Positions 3,177 to 35,808 of a DNA stretch of 64,000 bases are shown one piece after another. Within the stretch, counting starts at the first letter, position 1. Each line of letters begins with the position of its first letter. A model generated the notes under the pieces. It ran no database searches, was not told the origin of the DNA, and saw only the letters and a program-made list of their open reading frames with translations. Both the position numbers and the translations under genes were made by a program. The stretch comes from Asterias amurensis (taxonomy: Eukaryota > Echinodermata > Asteroidea > Forcipulatida > Asteriidae): contig NC_092657.1 in assembly GCF_032118995.1 (NCBI RefSeq), positions 6,278,391 to 6,342,390 of the forward strand. Direction: 5' to 3'.

Positions 3177-3554
3177 AGACAGTGGACACTATTGGCAATT
3201 GTCAAAGACCAGTCTGCTCACTTGGTGTATCTCAACATATGCGTACAATTACAAACCTGTGAAAATTTGAGCTCGATTGGTCGTCGGAGATGCAAGATAA
3301 CTATGAAAGAAATAACACCCTTGTCACACAAAGTTGTGTGCGTTCAGATGCTTGATTTCGGGACCTCAAATTCTAAACTTGAGGTCTCGAAATCAAACTC
3401 ATGGAAAATCACTTCTTTCTCGAGGACTACGTCACTTCAGAGGGGGCCGTTTATCACAATGTTTTATACCATCAACCTCTCCCCATTACTTGTTACCAAG
3501 TAAGGTTTTATGCTAATAATTGTTTTGAGTAACTACCAAAAGTGTCCACTGCCT
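3177..3554 (+). mobile_element. MITE, TTAA-flanked AGGCAGTGGACAC family, copy 1
   Basis: A TTAA lies on each side. Terminal inverted repeats begin AGACAGTGGACACTATTGG on the left and match the complement of the right end (AGTGTCCACTGCCT). About 380 bp, no coding capacity. This is the reference copy for the 16 copies listed in this window. Confidence 0.85.
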
Positions 3555-4079: not shown

Positions 4080-11252
<7,173 letters not shown>

Positions 11253-16892: not shown

Positions 16893-17277
16893 AGGCAGTG
16901 GACACTATTGGTAATGGTAATTACTCAAAACAATTATTGGCATAAATCCTTTCTTGGTGACGAGTAATGGGGAGAGGTTGATGGTATAAAACATTGTGAG
17001 AAACGGCTCCCTCTGAAGTGCCATAGTTTTCGATTAAGAAGTAATTTTCCACGAATTTGATTTCGAGACCTCAGATTTAGAACTTGAGGTCTCGAAATCA
17101 ACCAACTAAACGCAAACAACTTCGTTTGAAAAGGGTTATTTTTCTGTCATTATTATCTTGCAACTTCGATGACCAACTGAGCTCAAATTTTCACAGGTTT
17201 GTTATTAATATGCATATGTTGAGATACACCGACTGTGAAGGCTAGTCTTTGACAATTACCAATGGTGTCCACTGCCT
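16893..17277 (-). mobile_element. MITE, AGGCAGTGGACAC family, copy 4
   Basis: TTAA at both borders. Ends AGGCAGTGGACACTATTGG and CAATGGTGTCCACTGCCT. The interior is inverted relative to copies 1-3. Confidence 0.85.
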
Positions 17278-17403: not shown

Positions 17404-17628
17404 TTTAAAATTGTTCATTCTAGGGTATAAAATTAGACTAGTAGCGGCCCAATGGTAGAGCTCCGGACTCTATACCAAATGGTCAGGGTTCGAATCCCGA
17501 TCTTTGTTCTTTTTCTGCGCTTGAGAACAATGGTTTACGCGGTGCCCTATGGCAGAGGAAAATCCTTGCTCTGCACTTCATACATAATTTGCGAGTGGAA
17601 GACATAATTATCATACGTTTTGATTTAA
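17404..17628 (+). repeat. tRNA-like repeat unit left of the 5.7-kb transposon
   Basis: One long-type unit: TTTAAAATTGTTCATTCTAG, an A-box-like GTGG-type GCGGCCCAATGG, the B box GGTTCGAATCCC at 17488, a downstream tail, then GATTTAA, where the transposon starts. The array resumes at 23362 with the sequence expected to follow GATTTAA. This unit and the array on the right were therefore contiguous before insertion. Confidence 0.8.
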
Positions 17629-17837
17629 AGGCCGTGAAAAATGATAGCTTTGAGGGACGGAAACACATATACTTTATAAAACAAGCCCTACTGATTCCAA
17701 ATAAAATATTACTTTACCATTATCTGTGTATTTGACCTTGAAAAAGAAGCGACAACCCTAGCACTCGCATGACCCCCCTCTGCCCCCAAAACGTAAAAGT
17801 GGGACATTGAGATAATGATATGCACGTGACCCCAAAA

Positions 17838-17852
17838 ACGTCATAAAGGAGA
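17838..17852 (+). promoter_or_regulatory. Left copy of shared 15-bp subterminal motif
   Basis: ACGTCATAAAGGAGA, 169 bp before the THAP-gene ATG. The exact complement is at 23151-23165, about 100 bp before the other gene's ATG. It is CRE-like (CGTCA). Likely a promoter element or transposase-binding site; inference only. Confidence 0.55.
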
Positions 17853-18020
17853 TCGAGTCACGTGACGCGGAAGTACACTAGGAGCTTCAACGTGTGTGTG
17901 TATGCTTTGTTTTCGCCGTAGCGATGCGAGCTTCACAATTTTATCCTCTGGTTGTATCCCAGTTTAGTATAATTTAATCTTCGATTTGTGTATCTAAAGT
18001 TCAGTGCCGACACTATCAAA

Positions 18021-20224
18021 ATGCCCAAATCGTGTGTTGTAGGCGGGTGCACACGTAATATACTGAAAAATCCCGAAGTATTTTGGTTGTTGTTTCCCCA
18101 AGATAGTGCACTACCAGCGAGCATGAGTTCGTTTCGTCAACAACACACGTTCCGACTTCACACTACATGTAGGTAGTTCATCTTTTGTCTGCTCGGCTCA
18201 CTTCACCGATGATTGTATTGACGAAACAGTTAAGAACAAGCGAAGTCTTGGCTTGCCATTTCGGTTCAGACTTAAAGTTGGGTATGTCCCAAGCATCAAA
18301 GGACCACCAGTATCGGTCATGCATCAACGTCCGACACCGAGTACTTCGACGGGAATTCCTTCGACGTCCGCCGATGTGCAGACTCAGTCGGATGAGCCCG
18401 GCCCTAGCACAAGCACCGCAGAGAAGACATGGAGTACAGATCCTCGTAAGCGCTCTGGGGGAGCATACCTCAAAAGGGAAAGAGCAAGGTATGTACAAAC
18501 CACCGATTTCGTTTGTCCAATTATTCATAATCATGGTCATTGGGGAAAGTTTCAATGCGGTTGTAAATTTAACAGTAATTAATACAAAAATTTATCTGAA
18601 AATTTTTTCTATTTTTTTTTAAGTCAATGCCATGCCATGGACTTCATTCAGCTTGAAGTAATTGAATTTTAAAACTGTTCTCTCATGAACCAGCAGACAC
18701 TGTATTTGTCACTAAAGGTTTGTACACCTTTTGTTGAATATTTTTCAGGGTCGGCTTCTGCCAAGAAAGTTGCAGCCATTCTGGACAGCACGTGGACAAG
18801 AAAGGATGTGAAAATGTTGTCGCCATCCATGCAGACATCCTCGGTGGAAGGCTTCCACTCGGTTATTAACCAGTACGCGCCTAAGATGTTTTCATTTTCG
18901 TATGAGGACATGTTATGCAGGTGAGCAAATTTGGTCTACATACTAGGTTTAACCATATACTTTAGAGGGTGGTTGCGGGGGGGGGGGGGGGGGGGGGGGG
19001 GTTGAGGTGCACTGCAGATCTCCCAAGGCTATCTGTAGTGTATGCCTTAGAAGCTGTGGGATGGGGAATTGACTAGAAAGAATAACTATGGGCCTGACCC
19101 CCCTAACTAATTTATGGGACCTGCCCTTGATTTTTGCAATTTTTCAAAGAGTAGATCATAATTGGGTGAAACTCTTAGGTTGGATGATTAAGGTGTAAAA
19201 ACAAAATGTACATGTACAGTGCATTAGTATTTTGTGCATTCCACTAGCTTTCATTTAAAGGTTCGGCCAAGGTTTTGGCAGTACATACTGCAACACCATG
19301 CATTTTATCATACAAGTACATCCTTGTTTATTTCAGAATATACCTTGCTGCGCTTCATTTCAACGAGAACACCAACAGGGCACAGGCCATGGACAGGGAG
19401 GGCAATCCAGCATTCAGCATTCGCTATCCAAGGGCCAAGCAGACCACGGGGGGATATACTGTCAGGAAGGTGCTCATAAAGGCCACTCACAGTAAGTGCA
19501 TGGTTGTGTGCAAGTACATACATATGCTGGCACAAGAGGTGTTCTTGTCCTGATTAATAATTTCTTTGCAAACAAACTTCAACTGATCTAAGTAATTTTT
19601 ACTTTTTATTTGGGGCACAGTACAAAGACTAAATTTCTGTAAGATACAGTTGATGTTCAAGTCTCCTTTTTTTACAGTTTATTTCAAATGAACAACTTCT
19701 TTGTTTTGGGGGCACCCCCTTATTTTTGTGTATAAAATTTTCCTTGTTTCACAATTTGCGCCTAGTTTTTCACCCTTCACATTCCTCTAGCAATATTTTG
19801 CATGCATCAAAGTTAACCAATTGATTAGGCAAATCCACATGAAGTTTTATGTGCACTTTGTGGGTTGTGTCCTTATAATTGATTTTATTACATTATAGAT
19901 TTCAGCAAGAGGATCATGGAAAAGGTTCTGTTACTCTGCGCAGCTGGGGCAGACACCAGAGCCAAGTACCCGGAGCTGAAGGCAAATCCTGGATATCTAA
20001 CAGCAAAGGTAACTCGCCCTGACAAAACACAGGCTGTGAAAGAATTTGTGTCAAGGTTTGGTAAAGCGGTGGAGCCTGTAGGAAGACCAGAGGGGACTGA
20101 AGGTGTGGTTGTTCCAGCAAGTATGGCAACAAAGAAGAAGAAGAAGAGCAAGCATGCTGACAAAAGGCATACTGAGGGCCAACAAGAGGGAGAACCTTCA
20201 TCCAGAAAGAAACGCAAGAAGTAA
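18021..20224 (+). pseudogene. THAP-domain Kolobok-like transposase, internally deleted
   Basis: The first exon (18021-18488) encodes the start of a THAP zinc finger, MPKSCVVGGCTRN with the FP motif. In another frame it gives FVCSAHFTDD (the C-x2-H half) and then a Ser/Thr/Pro-rich linker, ending at a clean donor AAG/GTATGT. The two THAP halves are out of frame by one base near 18165. Later exons 18749-18920, 19337-19491 and 19899-20224 splice in phase and encode SSVEGFHSVINQYAPKM, YLAALHFNENTNRAQA and a Lys-rich tail (KKKKKSK, KKRKK) with stop TAA. The SVE glutamate may be the last residue of the DDE triad (inference). Only 260 bp separate exon 1 from 18749 and the phases do not match, so the central catalytic region is absent. 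DNA-binding and nuclear localisation would be expected of an intact relative. Confidence 0.75.
18979..19001. repeat. Poly-G run
   Basis: Uninterrupted G tract of more than 20 bases within an intron of the transposase gene. Length may be unreliable in sequencing. Confidence 0.9.
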
Positions 20225-21647
20225 ACGCCAAGTTGCCGCTAGCACATTCTTTGTGATTTTGTTAAAGTTGTGTGTAAACCAACAGGGTACATTGAAAACT
20301 TGTGGATAAGGACTGTTGCAACTAACACAAAATTGGAAGTTTTTTGGTTTTAATACCTTTGATAAATTCTTGTGAAACATTACAGTAGATACTGGCAAGG
20401 CATGTACCGACCTACAAAATTGCCACAAAAAATATCAACTTGGAATGCTGCGTTTGCCTGGTTTAAATAAGCTAAATGTTTACGTGCACAATCTTTATTA
20501 TACTGTTGCCCACTTCTGAACAAAACACAAGAATTCGTCAAATGTGGTCAGTTTCATATTTCTAAAAAGAAACACATTAAGATGTTCTGTGTGAAACACT
20601 CAACTGTCAAAGAAACACAAAGAGAACTGGATATTTGGGACCCAAGAATTTACTCTTTGTAAGCAGGACTTCCTTGTTAAGGTGATTTTTAATGACTCGA
20701 CCAACCTGTTGTACTAAAAATAAAAAAACCACAAGATTTAATAAATCGCAGTGCCAATTTTGAACTAAGTGAAAGATTTTTTTTGAAATTTTATTTTGCC
20801 CATGAAATTGGTGTGTCTGCATTCCACTGCTCAGTGGGAAGATGTAGTTTAGTTTGTTACAGGTAATACAGTGAAGATGCCTCTGACAGTGATTTTATCA
20901 AAATTCTCAAGATAAAAAAAAACATGCTTCCAAAACAAAGGTTCATGAATGCAACCTGTGCCTTGGGGTATTGAAAAAGTCGAAATGGCATCTCACACCC
21001 TTTTTCCTCAAACAAAAATTTTGGATTATCGTCAGTCATAATATTTTCTCAATTTGTCAGTGTAGGGACCCATTTGCTGCAGTATATATGGGTGGGTGGG
21101 TGGGGATGACGACACAACAGAGCATAATCTTTTGATATTCATTATGCATTCATTTCAGCATGCATTTATTGTTACTTGGTTTGCACACTAGAATACTATT
21201 CGACTGAACTCAACCAATATAACTAGCCATGGCTACCACTACATTTTTAAATAAAAATGCAACAACATATTTTTTAAATTTGACATCGTGGTGAGCTTGA
21301 ATTTTAACAAACACATGTACTTGTGCCGTATAATTGTACATTTTTTTTATTGTAAAGTACAAATTCTGTTTTATTTTTCCTACTCATCCATGAGTGCATC
21401 ACACAAATGAATTTAACATGGCATTCCCTCAAATATATTTAGTCCAAAACTTTGAATGTAAAATATTTTGTGTAAAAAAATAATAAAAAAATGCAAAGGC
21501 CTCTTTTGTTAACTTTACAAAAACGCTTGACCGTTCAAACTCATTTTTGAAAGACTATCATCATATTTACATTGTAAAGTGTATATTTACTCCTAAACCA
21601 TGTAAAAGTGTTACTGATATCCAGTTATGTGTTACTATATTGTAAAT
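20225..21647. other. Non-coding spacer between convergent transposon genes
   Basis: AT-rich, no coding region or repeat family recognised. It presumably holds the two 3' UTRs and polyadenylation sites. AATAAA-type signals exist on both strands but cannot be ranked. Confidence 0.5.
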
Positions 21648-23051
21648 CTACATGTCATCAAGGTCAGGAAATCTAAACCCTTCATAGTTGCCTCCTTCAT
21701 CGGGGAAAGTCGTTCTGGTTATCCCCATTATGCATGCTGGGAGGGGCACTCTGTTGTGTCTTCCAAGGTAACCATAACACCACCTGATCACCTGCCGATA
21801 AGACACATGTCTGTACTTTCTGTGAAATAAAAAATAATACCGTTCTGTTTTACAATCAACAAACTGTATATCATTTGTCCATTTGTTACGTTGAATTGAC
21901 CAGTGTTCTAGCCAGTATCAGTGTTACCAGGATAAGTGGGATTGACGAAATGGGCTCAAACAAGGAATATTGGGCTTATCAAGAGAGTCGTCTTTACTTT
22001 GGGGGTGGGAAAAGTGTCCTGATACATGTTCATGTATGTCACGTTTCTCATAAAATAGATTATCTGAATATAATAACCAGGTTGTGTGTTTCTATTTCGG
22101 TTCAAAAATCTTACAGAAAAAAAAGTTGAAATTTAAAAACATTGGATATTAACTCTTACCGTGGAAGGTCACCTTCAACAGCTCTAGCCCCTTACTGTTG
22201 TCGGTACGCATAGTACGCTGTCTCTAGTGTTCCGGGGTTCAGACATGTAGCCGAAGACCAGGGATGGTCTGTAAAACAACTGAAACTCTCAGTGTCGACT
22301 CCAGTATGAACGATTTTCTCCTGTATGGCTGCAATCTCTTTACAGCAAATGCAGTTGTGAACGAACTCCATCACCACACATTTACCACAGGAACACCTTC
22401 AATTCAAAAAGCAAGACAATTAAATAGTCAGACATTTTTTAGAGAACTGTGGCATGGAATTTAACTCAACATTCATGTACACAACTGAATTTCACTTGGT
22501 TGACATCATGACAAATTAGACACTAACAGTTACAGAAAACTACTCACAAACAAAGCTGTCTTTGCATTGTATGATGTAATCATGTATGATTGTGTAGATA
22601 TAGACGAGCGAGTATAAAGGCCTATGATTTTATGAGCCAAATGACCAGGTATACACACATGGGTACGTGTTTTGCCCTCATCAATATCAGCAAAAGCCTA
22701 CATACACAGGCTATGTAAAATCAGTGAACTATACTATGTCAATTATTCAGAAATTAAAATTACCAGTCGGTATTGTTCAATCGCTCGTTGTTGGCAGCTT
22801 GGTCATTCCCATCTTGTTCTTCATCGGGGTCGGCGTCATCAGCAGCAGCAGCGTCACCTTGCTGTTGGCGTGGTCTTGCCAGTGGCTCGAATCTATATGG
22901 TTCAGCCCCACGAACCACATCCTCATCGTCTGGCTCAACGTCATCGCTGTCTCCCGATCCCCCTGATATACTTTCAGATCCTTCACTGAAACCATCAGAA
23001 TCTACACTGATTTCTTCCCAAAATTCGTCCGGAGTTTTCAGAGTCTGACAT
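21648..23051 (-). CDS. P2X7 C-terminal (ballast) domain protein, three exons
   Basis: Exons on -: 23051-22764, 22396-22196, 21819-21648 (stop TAG), with good GT-AG sites and matching phases. Exon 1 encodes an acidic Ser/Asp/Glu-rich N-terminus and VVRGAEPYRFEPLARP. Exon 2 encodes WCSCGKCVVMEF, then NCICCKEI and CLNPGTLETAYYAYRQQ. Exon 3 encodes YRHVSYRQVIRWCYGYLG, RVPLPACIMGI and FPDEGGNYEGFRFP. The order WCxCGxC, CC, YRH-AYR-like, LPxC, FP-EG-Y-GF matches the zinc-binding, GTP-binding cytosolic ballast domain at the end of vertebrate P2X7. No channel or membrane segment is present. The ATG at 23051 (MSDSENSG) is one base out of frame with the long frame that starts about 10 codons later, so this is either a frameshift or an unseen 5' exon. 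Predicted length is about 219 residues. Confidence 0.88.
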
Positions 23052-23150
23052 GTTTACTTCGTGGAGGAAAGAATCGGCGGACAATACACGCACATTACAT
23101 GTGGGGCTTGCGTAGCGTGCGTGAGTTGTATGGGTACCAGACTTAGTCAG

Positions 23151-23165
23151 TCTCCTTTATGACGT
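23151..23165 (-). promoter_or_regulatory. Right copy of shared 15-bp subterminal motif
   Basis: On -, ACGTCATAAAGGAGA, here within TGACGTCA, a full CRE palindrome. Identical to 17838-17852 on +. It lies upstream of the ballast-domain gene. Confidence 0.55.
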
Positions 23166-23361
23166 CACAGCCATTGCGCAACAACCAATCGTGACCTCTG
23201 CATTTTCAGAATCGCGACGCGCGGGCTTTTTAAAAAATCCTTGTTTTAATCTTTTTACAATTTCGAGAAATTATCTTTGTATACTTATATATTGTGTTTG
23301 ATACATCAGCAACTAGATTTTGAAAGTGGATTGAATGGAAACTTCTCATTTTCCACGCACT

Positions 23362-23915
23362 TTAAAATTGTTCATCCTAGGGTATAACATTTAACTCAAT
23401 TCTACACCCAATGGTACGTGGTTCAAAGTCCGAGTGTTCTTTTACTACGTTTTGGTTTAAAGTTGTTTATTCTTAGATATAAAATTTAACTCGAACGCAA
23501 ACGAAGTAAGAGTAGTAGTGGCCCGATGGAAGGGCTCCCGACTCTACACCCAATGGTACGGGGTTCAAACCCCGAGTGTTCTTTTACTACGTTTTGGTTT
23601 AAAGTTGTTTATTCTTAGATATAAAATTAAACTCGAACGCAAATTGAGTAAGAGGAGACGTTGCCCAATGGAAGGGCTCCAGACTCTACACCCAATGGTA
23701 CGGGGTTCGAACCCGGGTGTTCTTTTACTACGTTTTAACTAAAGGTTTTTCATGCGAAGGTTAAAAAATAAACTCGAACGAAATTTAAGTAAGGGGAGAC
23801 GTGGCCCAATGGAAGGGCTCCGGACTCTACACCCTATGGTACAGGGTCCGATTCCTTGTCTGTGTTTTTTTTCTGCGCTTGAGAGCAAGGGTTTACGCGA
23901 AGCCCTATGGCAGAG
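23362..23915 (+). repeat. tRNA-like tandem array, first block (4 units)
   Basis: Units of about 145 bp, each with an A-box-like GTGGCCCAATGGAAGG or variant, a B-box-like sequence (near 23410, 23560, 23703, 23845) and a following TTTT. Unit spacers read ACGTTTTGGTTTAAAGTTGT. This continues the unit cut by the transposon. Confidence 0.85.
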
Positions 23916-26225: not shown

Positions 26226-28160
26226 GTCATGCGCTATTTATACGTTTTGATTTAAAGTTGTTCGTTCTAAGGTTTATAATTAAACTCGAACCCATTGTTA
26301 GTAAGAAGAGCGGTGGTCCAGTGGATGAGCTCCGGATTCTAAACGCAAAGGTACTGGGTTCGAGCCCCGTTGTGTGTCTTTTTCTACGCTTACAAATATT
26401 ATTGGTTGTCGCAGTACCCTATGTCACAGGGAATTCCTTGCTTTACCTGGTAAATAATTTGCGAGTGGAAGGCATAATATAAAAAGTTTTGATTTAAAAT
26501 TGTTCATCCTAGGGTATAAAATTAAACTCGAACGCAATTGATGTAAGACTAGTAGTGGCCCAATGGTAGAGCTCCGGACTCTACACCCAATGGTACGGGG
26601 TTCAAATCCCGGTCTGTGTTCCTTTAGTACGCTTGAGAACATTGGTTTGCGCGTTATCTTATGGCATAGGGAAATCCTTGCTTTACACTTAATAAATAAT
26701 TTGCGAGTGGAAGGCATAATTAAAATAAGTTTTGATTTAAAATTGTTCTTTATAGGGTATAACATTAAACTCGAACGCAACCGAAGTAAGATGAGTAGTG
26801 GCCCAATGGAAGGGTTCCCGACTCTACACCCTATGGTACGGGGTTCAAATCCCGAGTGTTCTTTTACTACGTTTTGGTTTAAAGTTTTTCATACGAAGGT
26901 TTAAAAATAAACTCGAACGCAATTTAAGTAAGAGTAGTAGTGGCCCGATGGAAGGGCTCCGGACTCTACACCCTAAGGTACGGGGTTCTAATCCCGAGTG
27001 TTCTTTTACTACGTTTTTCTGGTTTAAAGTTTTTCATACGAAGGTTTAAAATTAAGCTCGAACGCAATTTAAGTAAGAGGAGACGTGGCCCAATGGAAGG
27101 GCTCCGGACTCTACACCCAATGGCAGAGGGTTGAAATCCTGCTTTACACTTAATAAATAATTGCAAGTGGAAGGCATAATTAAAATAAGTTTTGATTTAA
27201 AATTGTTCACTCTAGGGTATAACAATAAACTCGAACGCAATTGATCTAAGGTAGTAGTGGCCCAGTGGAAGGGCTCCCGACTCTACACCAAATGGTACGG
27301 GGTTCGAATCCCCGTCCGTGTTCTTTTAGCACGCTTGAGAACATTGCTTTACGCGGTATCCTATGGCATAGGGAAATCCTTGCTTTACACTTGATAAATA
27401 ATTTGCGAGTGGGAGGCATAACTAAAATAAGTTTTGATTTAAAATTGTTAATTCTAGGGTATAACAATAAACTCGAACGCAATTAAAGCAAGAGGAGACG
27501 TGGCCCAGTGGAAGGGCTCCCGACTCTACACCCAATGGTGCGGGGTTCGAATCCCGGTCTGTGTTCTTTTACTGCCTTTTAATTTAAAGTTGTTCATACG
27601 AAGGTTTAAAATTAAACTCAAACGCAATTTATATAAGAGGAGACGTGGCCCAGTGGAAGGGCTCCCGACTCTACACCCAATGGTACGGGATTCGAATCCC
27701 GGTCTGTGTTCTTTTACTGCCTTTTAATTTAAAGTTGTTCATACGAAGGTTTAAAATTAAACTCAAACGCAATTAAAGTAAGAGGAGACGTGGCCCAGTG
27801 GAAGGGCTCCCGACTCTACACCCAATGGTACGGGGTTCGAATCCCGGTCTGTGTTCTTTTACTGCCTTTTGATTTAAAGTTGTTCATACGAAGGTTTAAA
27901 ATTAAACTCAAACGTAATTTAAGTAAGAGGAGACGTGGCCCAAATGGAAGGGCTCCGGACTCCACACCCAAAGGTACGGGGTTCGAATCCTGGGTGTTCT
28001 TTTACAAAGTTTTGATTTGAAGTTGTCCATACGAAGGTTTAAAATTAAACTCGAACGCACTTTAGTAAGAAGGACCAGTGGCCCAGTGGAAGGGCTCTGG
28101 TCTGAGGACCGGAAGGTCCCGGGATCGAAACCCGCTACAGAAAAGTTCCAGACGTTTTAA
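26226..28160 (+). repeat. tRNA-like tandem array, main block (about 11 units)
   Basis: B boxes near 26357, 26597, 26839, 26982, 27127, 27299, 27541, 27686, 27831, 27977 and 28118. Spacing is either about 145 bp or about 242 bp; the longer unit adds a tail containing ACGCTTGAGAACATTGG and AATAATTTGCGAGTGG. The best copies read TGGCCCAGTGG (A box), then 43 bp later GGTTCGAATCC (B box), then TTTT about 25 bp on, the layout of a type-2 Pol III gene. The T arm pairs in some copies (CGGGG/CCCCG) but the acceptor stem does not, so these are tRNA-derived units, not tRNA genes. Confidence 0.88.
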
Positions 28161-34057: not shown

Positions 34058-35808
34058 ATGCAGGTTTCGTTGGTAGTTTTCACTGTGCTCTTTTCGGTTG
34101 CTGTCGTTGCCGCATGGCCCGAACCAGCCCCAAAGTGCCCTAAGAATTGGTCGATGTTCAATGGTACGAGTTGTTTACAACTCTTCAAGATGAAGGAACC
34201 TTGGCATGAAGCAAGGTAAGATCGAGCGTAAAAGTAACATTTTTAGTTGAATACATACTACGTAGATTTTGTAATAAAGCCAATCATTAAAAGCAGTGGA
34301 CACTATTGGTAATTACTCAAATTAATTATTAGCATAAAACCTTTCTTGGTGACGAGTAATGGGGAGAGGTTGATGGTATTAAACATTGTGAGAAACGGCT
34401 CCCTCTTAAAGTGCCATAGTTTTCGAGAAAGAAGTAATTTTCCACGAATTTGATTCCGAGACCTCAGAGGTAGAACTTGAGGTCTCGAAATCAACCATCT
34501 AAACGCACAAAACTTCGTGTGACAAGGGTTATTTTTCTTTCATTATTATCTCGCAAATTCGATGACCGATTGAGCTCAAATTTTCACACGGTTTGTTATT
34601 TTATGCATATGTTAAGATACACCAACTGTGAAGGCTAGTCTTTGACAATTACCAATAGTGTACACTGTCTTTAACCAACTAATTCATAATCGAAACATAA
34701 TAAATGATATTATCTTATGGTACAAGGGTCATCTTTTCCCTTGCATAGTATTAGTACACATGGAAGCGTTGAATGTTCGCGATTTTGTTTAGTTATTGCC
34801 AAAATTCCTTAGCTTTTATTATTATGTCCATGCAGGAACAATATTTCACAATACACATCCTGAGAAGCATCACTGCAGTAACGCTTCTTATTTAGATGTT
34901 ATACATTTGTTTTCTTCACATAACCACTGCAGAAGGGAAGAGTTTCTCAGAATGCTTTACACCATCGGAAGATGCTGCATAAAGGCTTCTAACAAAATAG
35001 TTTGTGTTGCCCAGAGTTTAAAGAGTGGTTACTAGACGTATTATTACCTCTAAACGCAAGAAGACTAAAAACCTTATAGTGTTGTAGCACTATGTCCGCC
35101 ATATCGCAGAAAAAGGCTTATGGCGTGCCGTGGCCGATCGGTCAAGAACATTTTGACTTAAAGACAGTGGACACTATTGGTAATTGCCAAAGACCAGTCT
35201 TCTCATTTGGTGTATTTACCCCAGGTCCACACCGGTTACGAACCAGAGAGGGGGCTGTTCACCCCATGCCCACGCTGGTTATAAACGAGAGAGGGGGCTG
35301 TTCACCCCATGCCCACGCTGGTTATAAACGAGAAAGGGGGCTTTTCACCCATGCCCAGGCTGGTTATAAACAAATTTTGAACATAAAAATGCCAGTTTGA
35401 AGTTTATTGAAGTTTATTGATGTTCAAATACAAATTGTTATGTATGTTTTTAATTTAATTTTTAGGAGGCAATGCAAGTTCAACCAGGCTGATGCCGATC
35501 TTGTTGTCGTCAACACAGAAGAAAAAAAGTCGTACGTCCACACCATGGTCCACGCCAAACCTCCCCTTTTCAGCTGCGGCATAACAGGTATATCAGAGTA
35601 CTGGATAGGCGGCCACGATTCCCACAAGGAGGGAAGGTTCGAGTGGCTCGACACCTTCCATGTGCTCGACTATACCAACTGGGACAGTTGGGAGCCTAAC
35701 AACAGCTGGGGAGAAGACTGTATTGAGATGCAGTACAAAGACGGCAAGTGGAATGACGAAGATTGCGATAATAAGCGTTGTTTCGTGTGCGAGAAACCGG
35801 CTAATTAG
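34058..35808 (+). CDS. Secreted C-type lectin, two exons
   Basis: Exons 34058-34215 and 35466-35808 (stop TAG) join through a donor AAG/GTAAG and acceptor TTTTTAG/G to give 166 residues. Residues 1-19 form a signal peptide (MQVSLVVFTVLFSVAVVAA). One C-type lectin domain follows: CPKNW start, WHEAR, YWIGG, the WEPNN loop, WNDEDC and terminal CFVCEKP. EPN plus WND are the calcium/sugar-site-2 residues of mannose-type lectins, so calcium-dependent mannose-like binding in the coelomic fluid or other secretions is likely. The domain fills the protein. TATAAATA near 33895 could be its promoter. The intron holds a TTAA MITE (34291-34670), a truncated copy (35162-35217) and a 47-bp tandem repeat. Confidence 0.95.
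34291..34670 (-). mobile_element. MITE, AGGCAGTGGACAC family, copy 6
   Basis: TTAA at 34287-34290 and 34671-34674. Ends AAGCAGTGGACACTATTGG and CAATAGTGTACACTGTCT. In the lectin intron. Confidence 0.85.
35120..35217 (+). mobile_element. SINE-head fragment and truncated TTAA MITE (copy 7)
   Basis: CGTGGCCGATCGGTCAAGAA resembles the class II tRNA-like head. TTAA then AGACAGTGGACACTATTGG starts at 35162, and the MITE breaks off where the 47-bp repeats begin. Confidence 0.6.
35220..35371 (+). repeat. 47-bp tandem repeat, about 3.3 copies
   Basis: Unit core CCCATGCCCACGCTGGTTAT followed by AAACGAGAGAGGGGGCTGTTC. It ends about 95 bp before lectin exon 2. Confidence 0.9.

Follow-up and report, generated by a model that had tools for sequence, protein, structure and literature searches.

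A TTAA-flanked Kolobok-type transposon family with the remnants of a THAP transposase gene and a P2X7 ballast-domain gene in the starfish Asterias amurensis

The element and its two genes

The window analyzed here, a stretch of 64,000 nucleotides from the starfish Asterias amurensis (contig C10, positions 6278391-6342390), holds at its positions 17629-23361 a discrete mobile transposon of 5733 bp, which is flanked by TTAA and whose end bases are AG...CT. Between these ends lie the remnants of two convergent genes: gene 1 is a transposase remnant with a THAP domain, and gene 2, KolX, carries the cysteine-rich ballast domain known from the P2X7 receptor. The exon limits of both genes were set from GT/AG sites in combination with homology. 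The features of the locus, in window coordinates, are the following:

17625..17628, no strand: left TTAA target-site duplication (TTAA-pair scan, empty site, copies)
17629..17648, plus strand: left terminal inverted repeat AGGCCGTGAAAAATGATAGC (14/20 versus the right end)
17838..17852, plus strand: 15-bp motif ACGTCATAAAGGAGA, some 170 bp before the start codon (ATG) of the transposase
18021..18488, plus strand: THAP-domain exon, frameshifted (Pfam, alignment)
18749..18920, plus strand: transposase exon with QTSSVEGFHS (alignment to relatives)
19337..19491, plus strand: transposase C-terminal exon (alignment to relatives)
19899..20224, plus strand: last transposase exon with stop codon (alignment, reading frame)
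21648..21819, minus strand: KolX exon 3, in which the ballast domain ends
22160..22396, minus strand: KolX exon 2, ballast-domain cysteine cluster, with an in-frame TAA in the window copy
22764..23051, minus strand: KolX exon 1, starting at the ATG and encoding the acidic N-terminal part, frameshifted in the window copy
23151..23165, minus strand: second copy of ACGTCATAAAGGAGA, a perfect inverted partner of the first, some 100 bp before the start codon (ATG) of KolX
23342..23361, minus strand: right terminal inverted repeat (end comparison, copies)
23362..23365, no strand: right TTAA target-site duplication (TTAA-pair scan, empty site, copies)
26730..26748, plus strand: empty target site TTTTGATTTAAAATTGTTC within a sister unit of the repeat (flank alignment)

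The outer ends of the element read AGGCCGTG... on the left and ...CACGCACT on the right, the 5' start being AGGCCGTGAAAAATGATAGC and the 3' finish CTTCTCATTTTCCACGCACT. As the initial annotation had stated, the left and right ends match at 14 of their first 20 positions. Such a match is weak evidence when taken alone, because 21 of the 28,745 TTAA pairs lying 1-10 kb apart in the window reach 14 or more (this element included, and several of the others belonging to one repeated short-element family), and inverted-repeat similarity was rejected as sole proof of an element. The insertion into a tRNA-like repeat, which the same annotation had proposed, was corroborated in two other ways. Once one TTAA is taken out and the two flanks are put together, the resulting sequence aligns across the junction with a sister tRNA-like unit at 26490-27034 (77% identity, 13% gaps), in which the 19 bases spanning the junction, TTTTGATTTAAAATTGTTC, are gap-free and identical. 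Furthermore, the repeated sequence starts and stops at exactly the border bases of the element in all 13 other two-ended copies described below. The flanking repeat is designated only as tRNA-like because ARAGORN calls no transfer RNA (tRNA) gene in the window. Units of this kind are repeated at 23401-23847 and about 26237-28100, those of the first array measuring 142 bp, and they contain stretches that resemble an A-box and a B-box.

In gene 1, THAP (Pfam: PF05485) was matched with an E-value of 7.7e-6 by the plus-strand exon after its parts had been joined and the frameshift written as X. The remaining transposase exons, for which no Pfam match was obtained, were placed by alignment to the related proteins P0020 and P0023. 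These three downstream exons correspond to the end of PF20700 transposases, including the QTSSVEGFHS block, and the PF20700 proteins aligned to the remnant carry DVWH or DLWH. The earlier description of gene 1 as a THAP/SVE transposase remnant stands. From the alignment and from what is known of the family, we take the E of the QTSSVEGFHS block to be the last catalytic residue. Between 18489 and 18748, where the exons with the first two catalytic D residues would be expected, these exons are missing, and in the genome search no copy of the family matched before residue 404 of P0020. Within the THAP exon, a TGA at 18124-18126 replaces a Trp of the relatives. A run of 25 G occupies 18977-19001 in the second intron of the remnant. 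THAP domains like that of the window were also seen in two fusions (P0021, P0022), a Diadema protein in which SAP30 domains are attached and a protein from a moray eel in which the partner domains are those of pyrroline-5-carboxylate reductase; these fusions are possibly captured transposon exons or annotation errors.

Gene 2 gave a match to P2RX7_C (Pfam: PF20478, E 9.9e-14; joined minus-strand reading with X at the stop), in agreement with the ballast-domain gene of the initial annotation, and a match to solved P2X7 structures (E 1.1e-5). Its nearest protein is an Asterias rubens 'P2X purinoceptor 7-like' sequence, with 95% identity, which points to an Asterias host. Seven cysteines were invariant across all 16 sequences of an alignment comprising the KolX reading of the window and 15 of 19 database hits. 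No P2X channel domain was matched ahead of the ballast domain, P2RX7_C being the only match of the joined KolX reading. Judging from the ballast domain, KolX probably served the parent element as an accessory protein that binds zinc; a literature search on the name KolX found no published role. The claim that exactly two convergent spliced genes lie between the ends needs qualification, as the exon limits are deduced and both genes of the window copy contain frameshifts or stops. What had been overlooked is that both genes, as modelled, are damaged and that the catalytic core is missing from the entire window family.

The TTAA duplication is also produced by piggyBac elements, and proteins resembling the C-terminus of KolX have been reported from a few families of piggyBac (PMC9587614), which raises the alternative that the element is a piggyBac transposon. 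The ends 5'-AG and CT-3' have the Kolobok form, however, and THAP and P2RX7_C were the only Pfam matches above the cut-off, with no piggyBac transposase in the exons scanned, while the remnant aligns to the DVWH- or DLWH-bearing PF20700 proteins. The KolX-like piggyBac proteins, as reported in the same article, also lack most of the cysteines. On these grounds we consider a piggyBac origin extremely unlikely.

The distance of the motif ACGTCATAAAGGAGA from the left end is about 210 bp, that of its inverted partner from the right end about 200 bp, and the motif is exact at both sites in all 14 copies of the family. It was not found inside the elements of families 2 and 3 (see below) when up to three mismatches were allowed. 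The motif may be part of a promoter or may be bound by the transposase.

Copies of the family in the genome

Both ends were used as queries against the 491.5 Mb of the genome, comprising 23 contigs. The left end matched at least 18 places and the right end at least 16, these counts being lower bounds, and both ends were present together at at least 14 places including the window, which gives at least 13 further copies and excludes the possibility that the ends are unshared. All 17 non-window left-end places were examined, yielding 13 two-ended copies and four partial or diverged matches. Out of the 13 copies, 11 align in one piece over the full element; whole-length BLAST identity to the window copy was 96.6-99.4% with gaps counted. 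The other two, L013 and L016, have internal deletions, that of L013 removing the last part of gene 1. TTAA was found on both sides in 12 of the 13, the exception being L016 (TTAA/TTAT), which is also the only one to differ, by a single base, in the left 20 bases. Pairwise identity among the 14 copies ranged from 98.3 to 99.9% when gapped columns were excluded, their flanks all differ, and each retains remnants of both genes between paired ends. This high identity, to which no calibrated date is attached, reflects a recent multiplication of the window family.

The end searches also returned a right end of the window family at C8:11295166-11295371 (95%) with no left partner, and a partial right end at C3:24234385 with no left end. 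No other copy was detected within the window, where the best match was low-complexity (E 0.007), and searches for relatives of KolX or of the core in the viral_contigs and genome_contigs collections returned pattern matches only, none of which was confirmed.

The frameshift of the THAP exon and the TGA were both present in all 14 copies, none of which has an intact transposase. Because these lesions are common to every copy, the family multiplied when its transposase was already dead. KolX as modelled is likewise broken in 14 of 14, some copies showing more than one lesion: the TAA of exon 2 is common to seven copies, a stop in exon 1 is common to L017-L020, and frameshifts occur in L013, L016, and L021. 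Variation between copies amounted to 1.33% in the KolX exons, 1.42% in the KolX introns, and 1.12% in the whole element. In KolX exons 2 and 3 we counted 17 nonsynonymous versus 8 synonymous variant codons, and in the C-terminal exons of the transposase (overall variation 0.73%) 17 versus 2. Variation in exons at the level of introns, together with these codon counts, is as expected of unconstrained cargo, and no sign of constraint on KolX was seen in the variation among the 14 copies.

These copies also bear on the reading of the locus as a THAP gene of the host next to a P2X7-like gene that the host has domesticated, both caught between unrelated repeats. Close relatives of KolX are indeed annotated as 'P2X purinoceptor 7-like', and Kojima and Bao (PMC9587614) regard zebrafish Nanor as a domesticated KolX. 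Against this, the 14 copies have identical borders within different flanks, an empty site exists in the sister repeat unit, both genes are lesioned, and exons vary as much as introns. The further copies with the same borders refute this reading at the window locus, and its likelihood is vanishingly small.

Related loci, origin, and mobilization

Searching the genome with P0020 for the transposase core produced 58 matches, which were grouped by hand and included 13 places outside the window family, of which eight were examined. At five of the eight (C10:8.83, C18:12.84, C10:14.09, C7:11.59, and C2:22.82 Mb) a convergent KolX lies downstream of the core. Two of them, C10:8.83 Mb (8348 bp) and C18:12.84 Mb (8339 bp), are 99.2% alike over 8.3 kb and constitute family 2, which ends exactly at TTAA and has AGACC termini matching at 13 of 20 positions. 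In family 2 we found THAP (E 9.5e-15) and P2RX7_C (E 7.6e-10) by Pfam, with KolX convergent, and the blocks GGDGRCDS, TDRH...YFDVWH, and IEGFHS, as read in the C10:8.83 Mb copy. Family 3 is a single copy of 7974 bp at C7:11.59 Mb, flanked by TTAA and bounded by inverted repeats that are nearly identical and about 220 bp long; it follows the same gene plan as family 2, its THAP match being weak (31%). The right end of C10:14.09 Mb matches family 2, its body contains insertions, and neither a left end nor a THAP exon was observed. For C2:22.82 Mb no element ends were found, the best of 2,040 TTAA pairs reaching 13/20 and not being AG-ended.

A complementary genome search with the KolX of Patiria returned 64 matches, hand-grouped into 30 places, 14 in the window family and 16 elsewhere. 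At nine of the 16 outside places, a match to the core lies no more than about 10 kb away. KolX stands inside a TTAA-flanked repeat pair at 17 of the 30 (14 in the window family, two in family 2, and one in family 3), so the expectation that ballast genes lie inside terminal repeat pairs is borne out for these 17 and undemonstrated for the other 13. Two places outside the families have KolX exons and no transposase match in the 6 kb examined: L039 (C21:9883111) is a diverged relative of the window family, with 81% DNA identity over 327 bases, and L040 (C8:11183241) has a more distant KolX exon without a stop. Both are candidates for old copies or host genes.

The ends, the TTAA duplication, the 14 two-ended copies, the convergent pair, the absence of the core, and the shared transposase lesions are direct observations, and we hold with high confidence that the window stretch is a copy of a young non-autonomous Kolobok-type cut-and-paste family that arose from a two-gene Kol0-like element. 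Presumably, the family was copied by a transposase supplied in trans. Under this model, an internal deletion running from intron to intron would have taken the core exons and left a spliceable remnant from THAP to the C-terminus; a related autonomous Kolobok transposase of the same genome would have recognized the ends, excised the element, and inserted it at TTAA; and the KolX of the parent element would have travelled along as passive cargo. The nearest candidate for the source in trans, by sequence likeness of ends and C-terminal exons, is family 2. Its ends match those of the window family at 13 of 17 positions in the best of four comparisons, and its C-terminal exons show 61% and 53% identity to those of the window family.

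Several observations weigh against this account. The resemblance of the family 2 ends is uneven, the three other comparisons giving 11, 11, and 10; the genome search found no autonomous copy with the window family's own ends; and the identity of the trans source is a guess. The core exons of family 2, scanned singly, gave no Pfam match, its assignment resting on tblastn with P0020. Three of the eight examined core places (C4:6.77, C6:20.99, and C11:4.86 Mb) had no KolX within the stretch examined. Of the 16 outside KolX places, seven showed no match to the core at a distance of up to about 10 kb, two of these seven showing no transposase match when viewed in 6-kb stretches, and of the nine that did have one only six were convergent by position. 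Finally, KolX need not be dead in L009, L011, and L015, where the TAA is the sole lesion: this TAA sits within GTAAG, 36 bases upstream of the usual donor and in the same phase, and GTAAG could act as an in-frame donor, by which a shortened KolX product is possible.

Two proposals build on this last point. The first holds that a KolX element devoid of transposase survives through a working KolX, the TAA being a new in-frame splice donor and KolX aiding copies mobilized in trans. In its favor, the frame is otherwise open in three of the 14 copies and the GTAAG shares the phase of the old donor. Against it, the exons vary like the introns, the codon counts of KolX stand at 17:8, and each of the 11 remaining copies has frameshifts, another stop, or more than this one lesion; we judge it very unlikely. 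The second, that a family with a dead transposase makes a shortened KolX through the donor created by the stop and that this protein acts on trans-mobilized elements without a transposase in cis, stands only a slim chance. KolX as passive cargo of a trans-mobilized family remains our preferred reading.

Classification and relation to described elements

Kolobok termini are defined as 5'-RR and YY-3' (PMC9587614), and the AG...CT ends of the window family conform to this definition. The TTAA duplication is present in the window and in 12 of the 13 other two-ended copies, and the THAP domain that usually accompanies Kolobok transposases was detected (PF05485), its frame being broken in 14 of 14. 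These three features support the Kolobok type proposed earlier. As for the DDD/E transposase with its C/DxxH motif, the window family keeps the E block only, for which reason it is filed as a non-autonomous derivative and not as a complete Kolobok; the D, D, and DVWH blocks are present in family 2 of the same genome. The second gene with ballast-domain sequence, characteristic of Kol0, occurs in the window family and, as a convergent KolX, in families 2 and 3.

The initial annotation knew of no described element with a ballast-domain second gene, and this statement was contradicted by the literature. Kojima and Bao (2022, PMC9587614) described Kol0 Kolobok elements encoding two proteins, of which KolX resembles P2X7 residues 476-595, and proposed P2X7 as a fusion of a P2X4-like gene with KolX; novelty of the two-gene element as such therefore fails. 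Like the window family, the Kol0 lineage (Kolobok-1_XT, PMC9587614) has TTAA, 5'-RR/YY-3' ends, and two genes, the second with the ballast domain. In contrast to Kol0, the window family is without the catalytic core, both its genes are broken as modelled, and its host is a starfish, whereas the Kol0 hosts named in the part of PMC9587614 drawn on here are vertebrates, annelids, cnidarians, and sponges. That article was the only Kolobok-mentioning paper among the matches listed for Kolobok, P2X7, and ballast-domain literature; none of the matches listed concerned Kolobok in starfish, a listing that does not prove absence.

The Kolobok elements of Xenopus (XKol, 6.8-13.9 kb; PMC6004289) combine a transposase bearing THAP, H2CH, and DDE with TTAA and AG ends. 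They differ from the window family in that the portion of the source cited here mentions no second gene and in that the full-length copies listed there still have a long open frame for the transposase. The T2 elements of Xenopus, which are miniature inverted-repeat transposable elements (MITEs), share with the window family a non-autonomous state and TTAA, and have AGGRR ends (PMC6004289); they are short, whereas the window copy measures 5.7 kb and retains gene remnants. The ballast domain itself, also described as a zinc-cysteine domain and present in Nanor-like genes, has been reported across animals, including sea urchin and acorn worm members (Rump 2020, PMC7016195), and is the same domain as in KolX. 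That study treats ballast-domain genes as host genes, the string 'transpos' being absent from its main text.

The window family is thus a new non-autonomous family of an already described two-gene kind. It provides independent multi-copy confirmation, in an echinoderm, that ballast-domain 'P2X7-like' genes reside inside Kolobok elements, on the basis of a single genome that holds 14 copies of one family as well as two more families whose ends are complete. As the initial annotation had anticipated, invertebrate 'P2X7-like' genes can be transposon genes, and the label 'P2X purinoceptor 7-like' in invertebrate annotation should be read with this caution. The published idea that the tail of vertebrate P2X7 came from such an element would be compatible with the present data.

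The window also contains a MITE family with Kolobok-like ends, whose short members measure about 378-389 bp, have the ends AGRCAGTGGACACTATTGGT, and for the most part stand next to TTAA:

3177-3554, 9649-10037, 10712-11090, 16893-17277, 34291-34670, and others: MITE-like elements

Allowing up to four mismatches, these ends gave 23 matches, 19 of which have TTAA on the outside.

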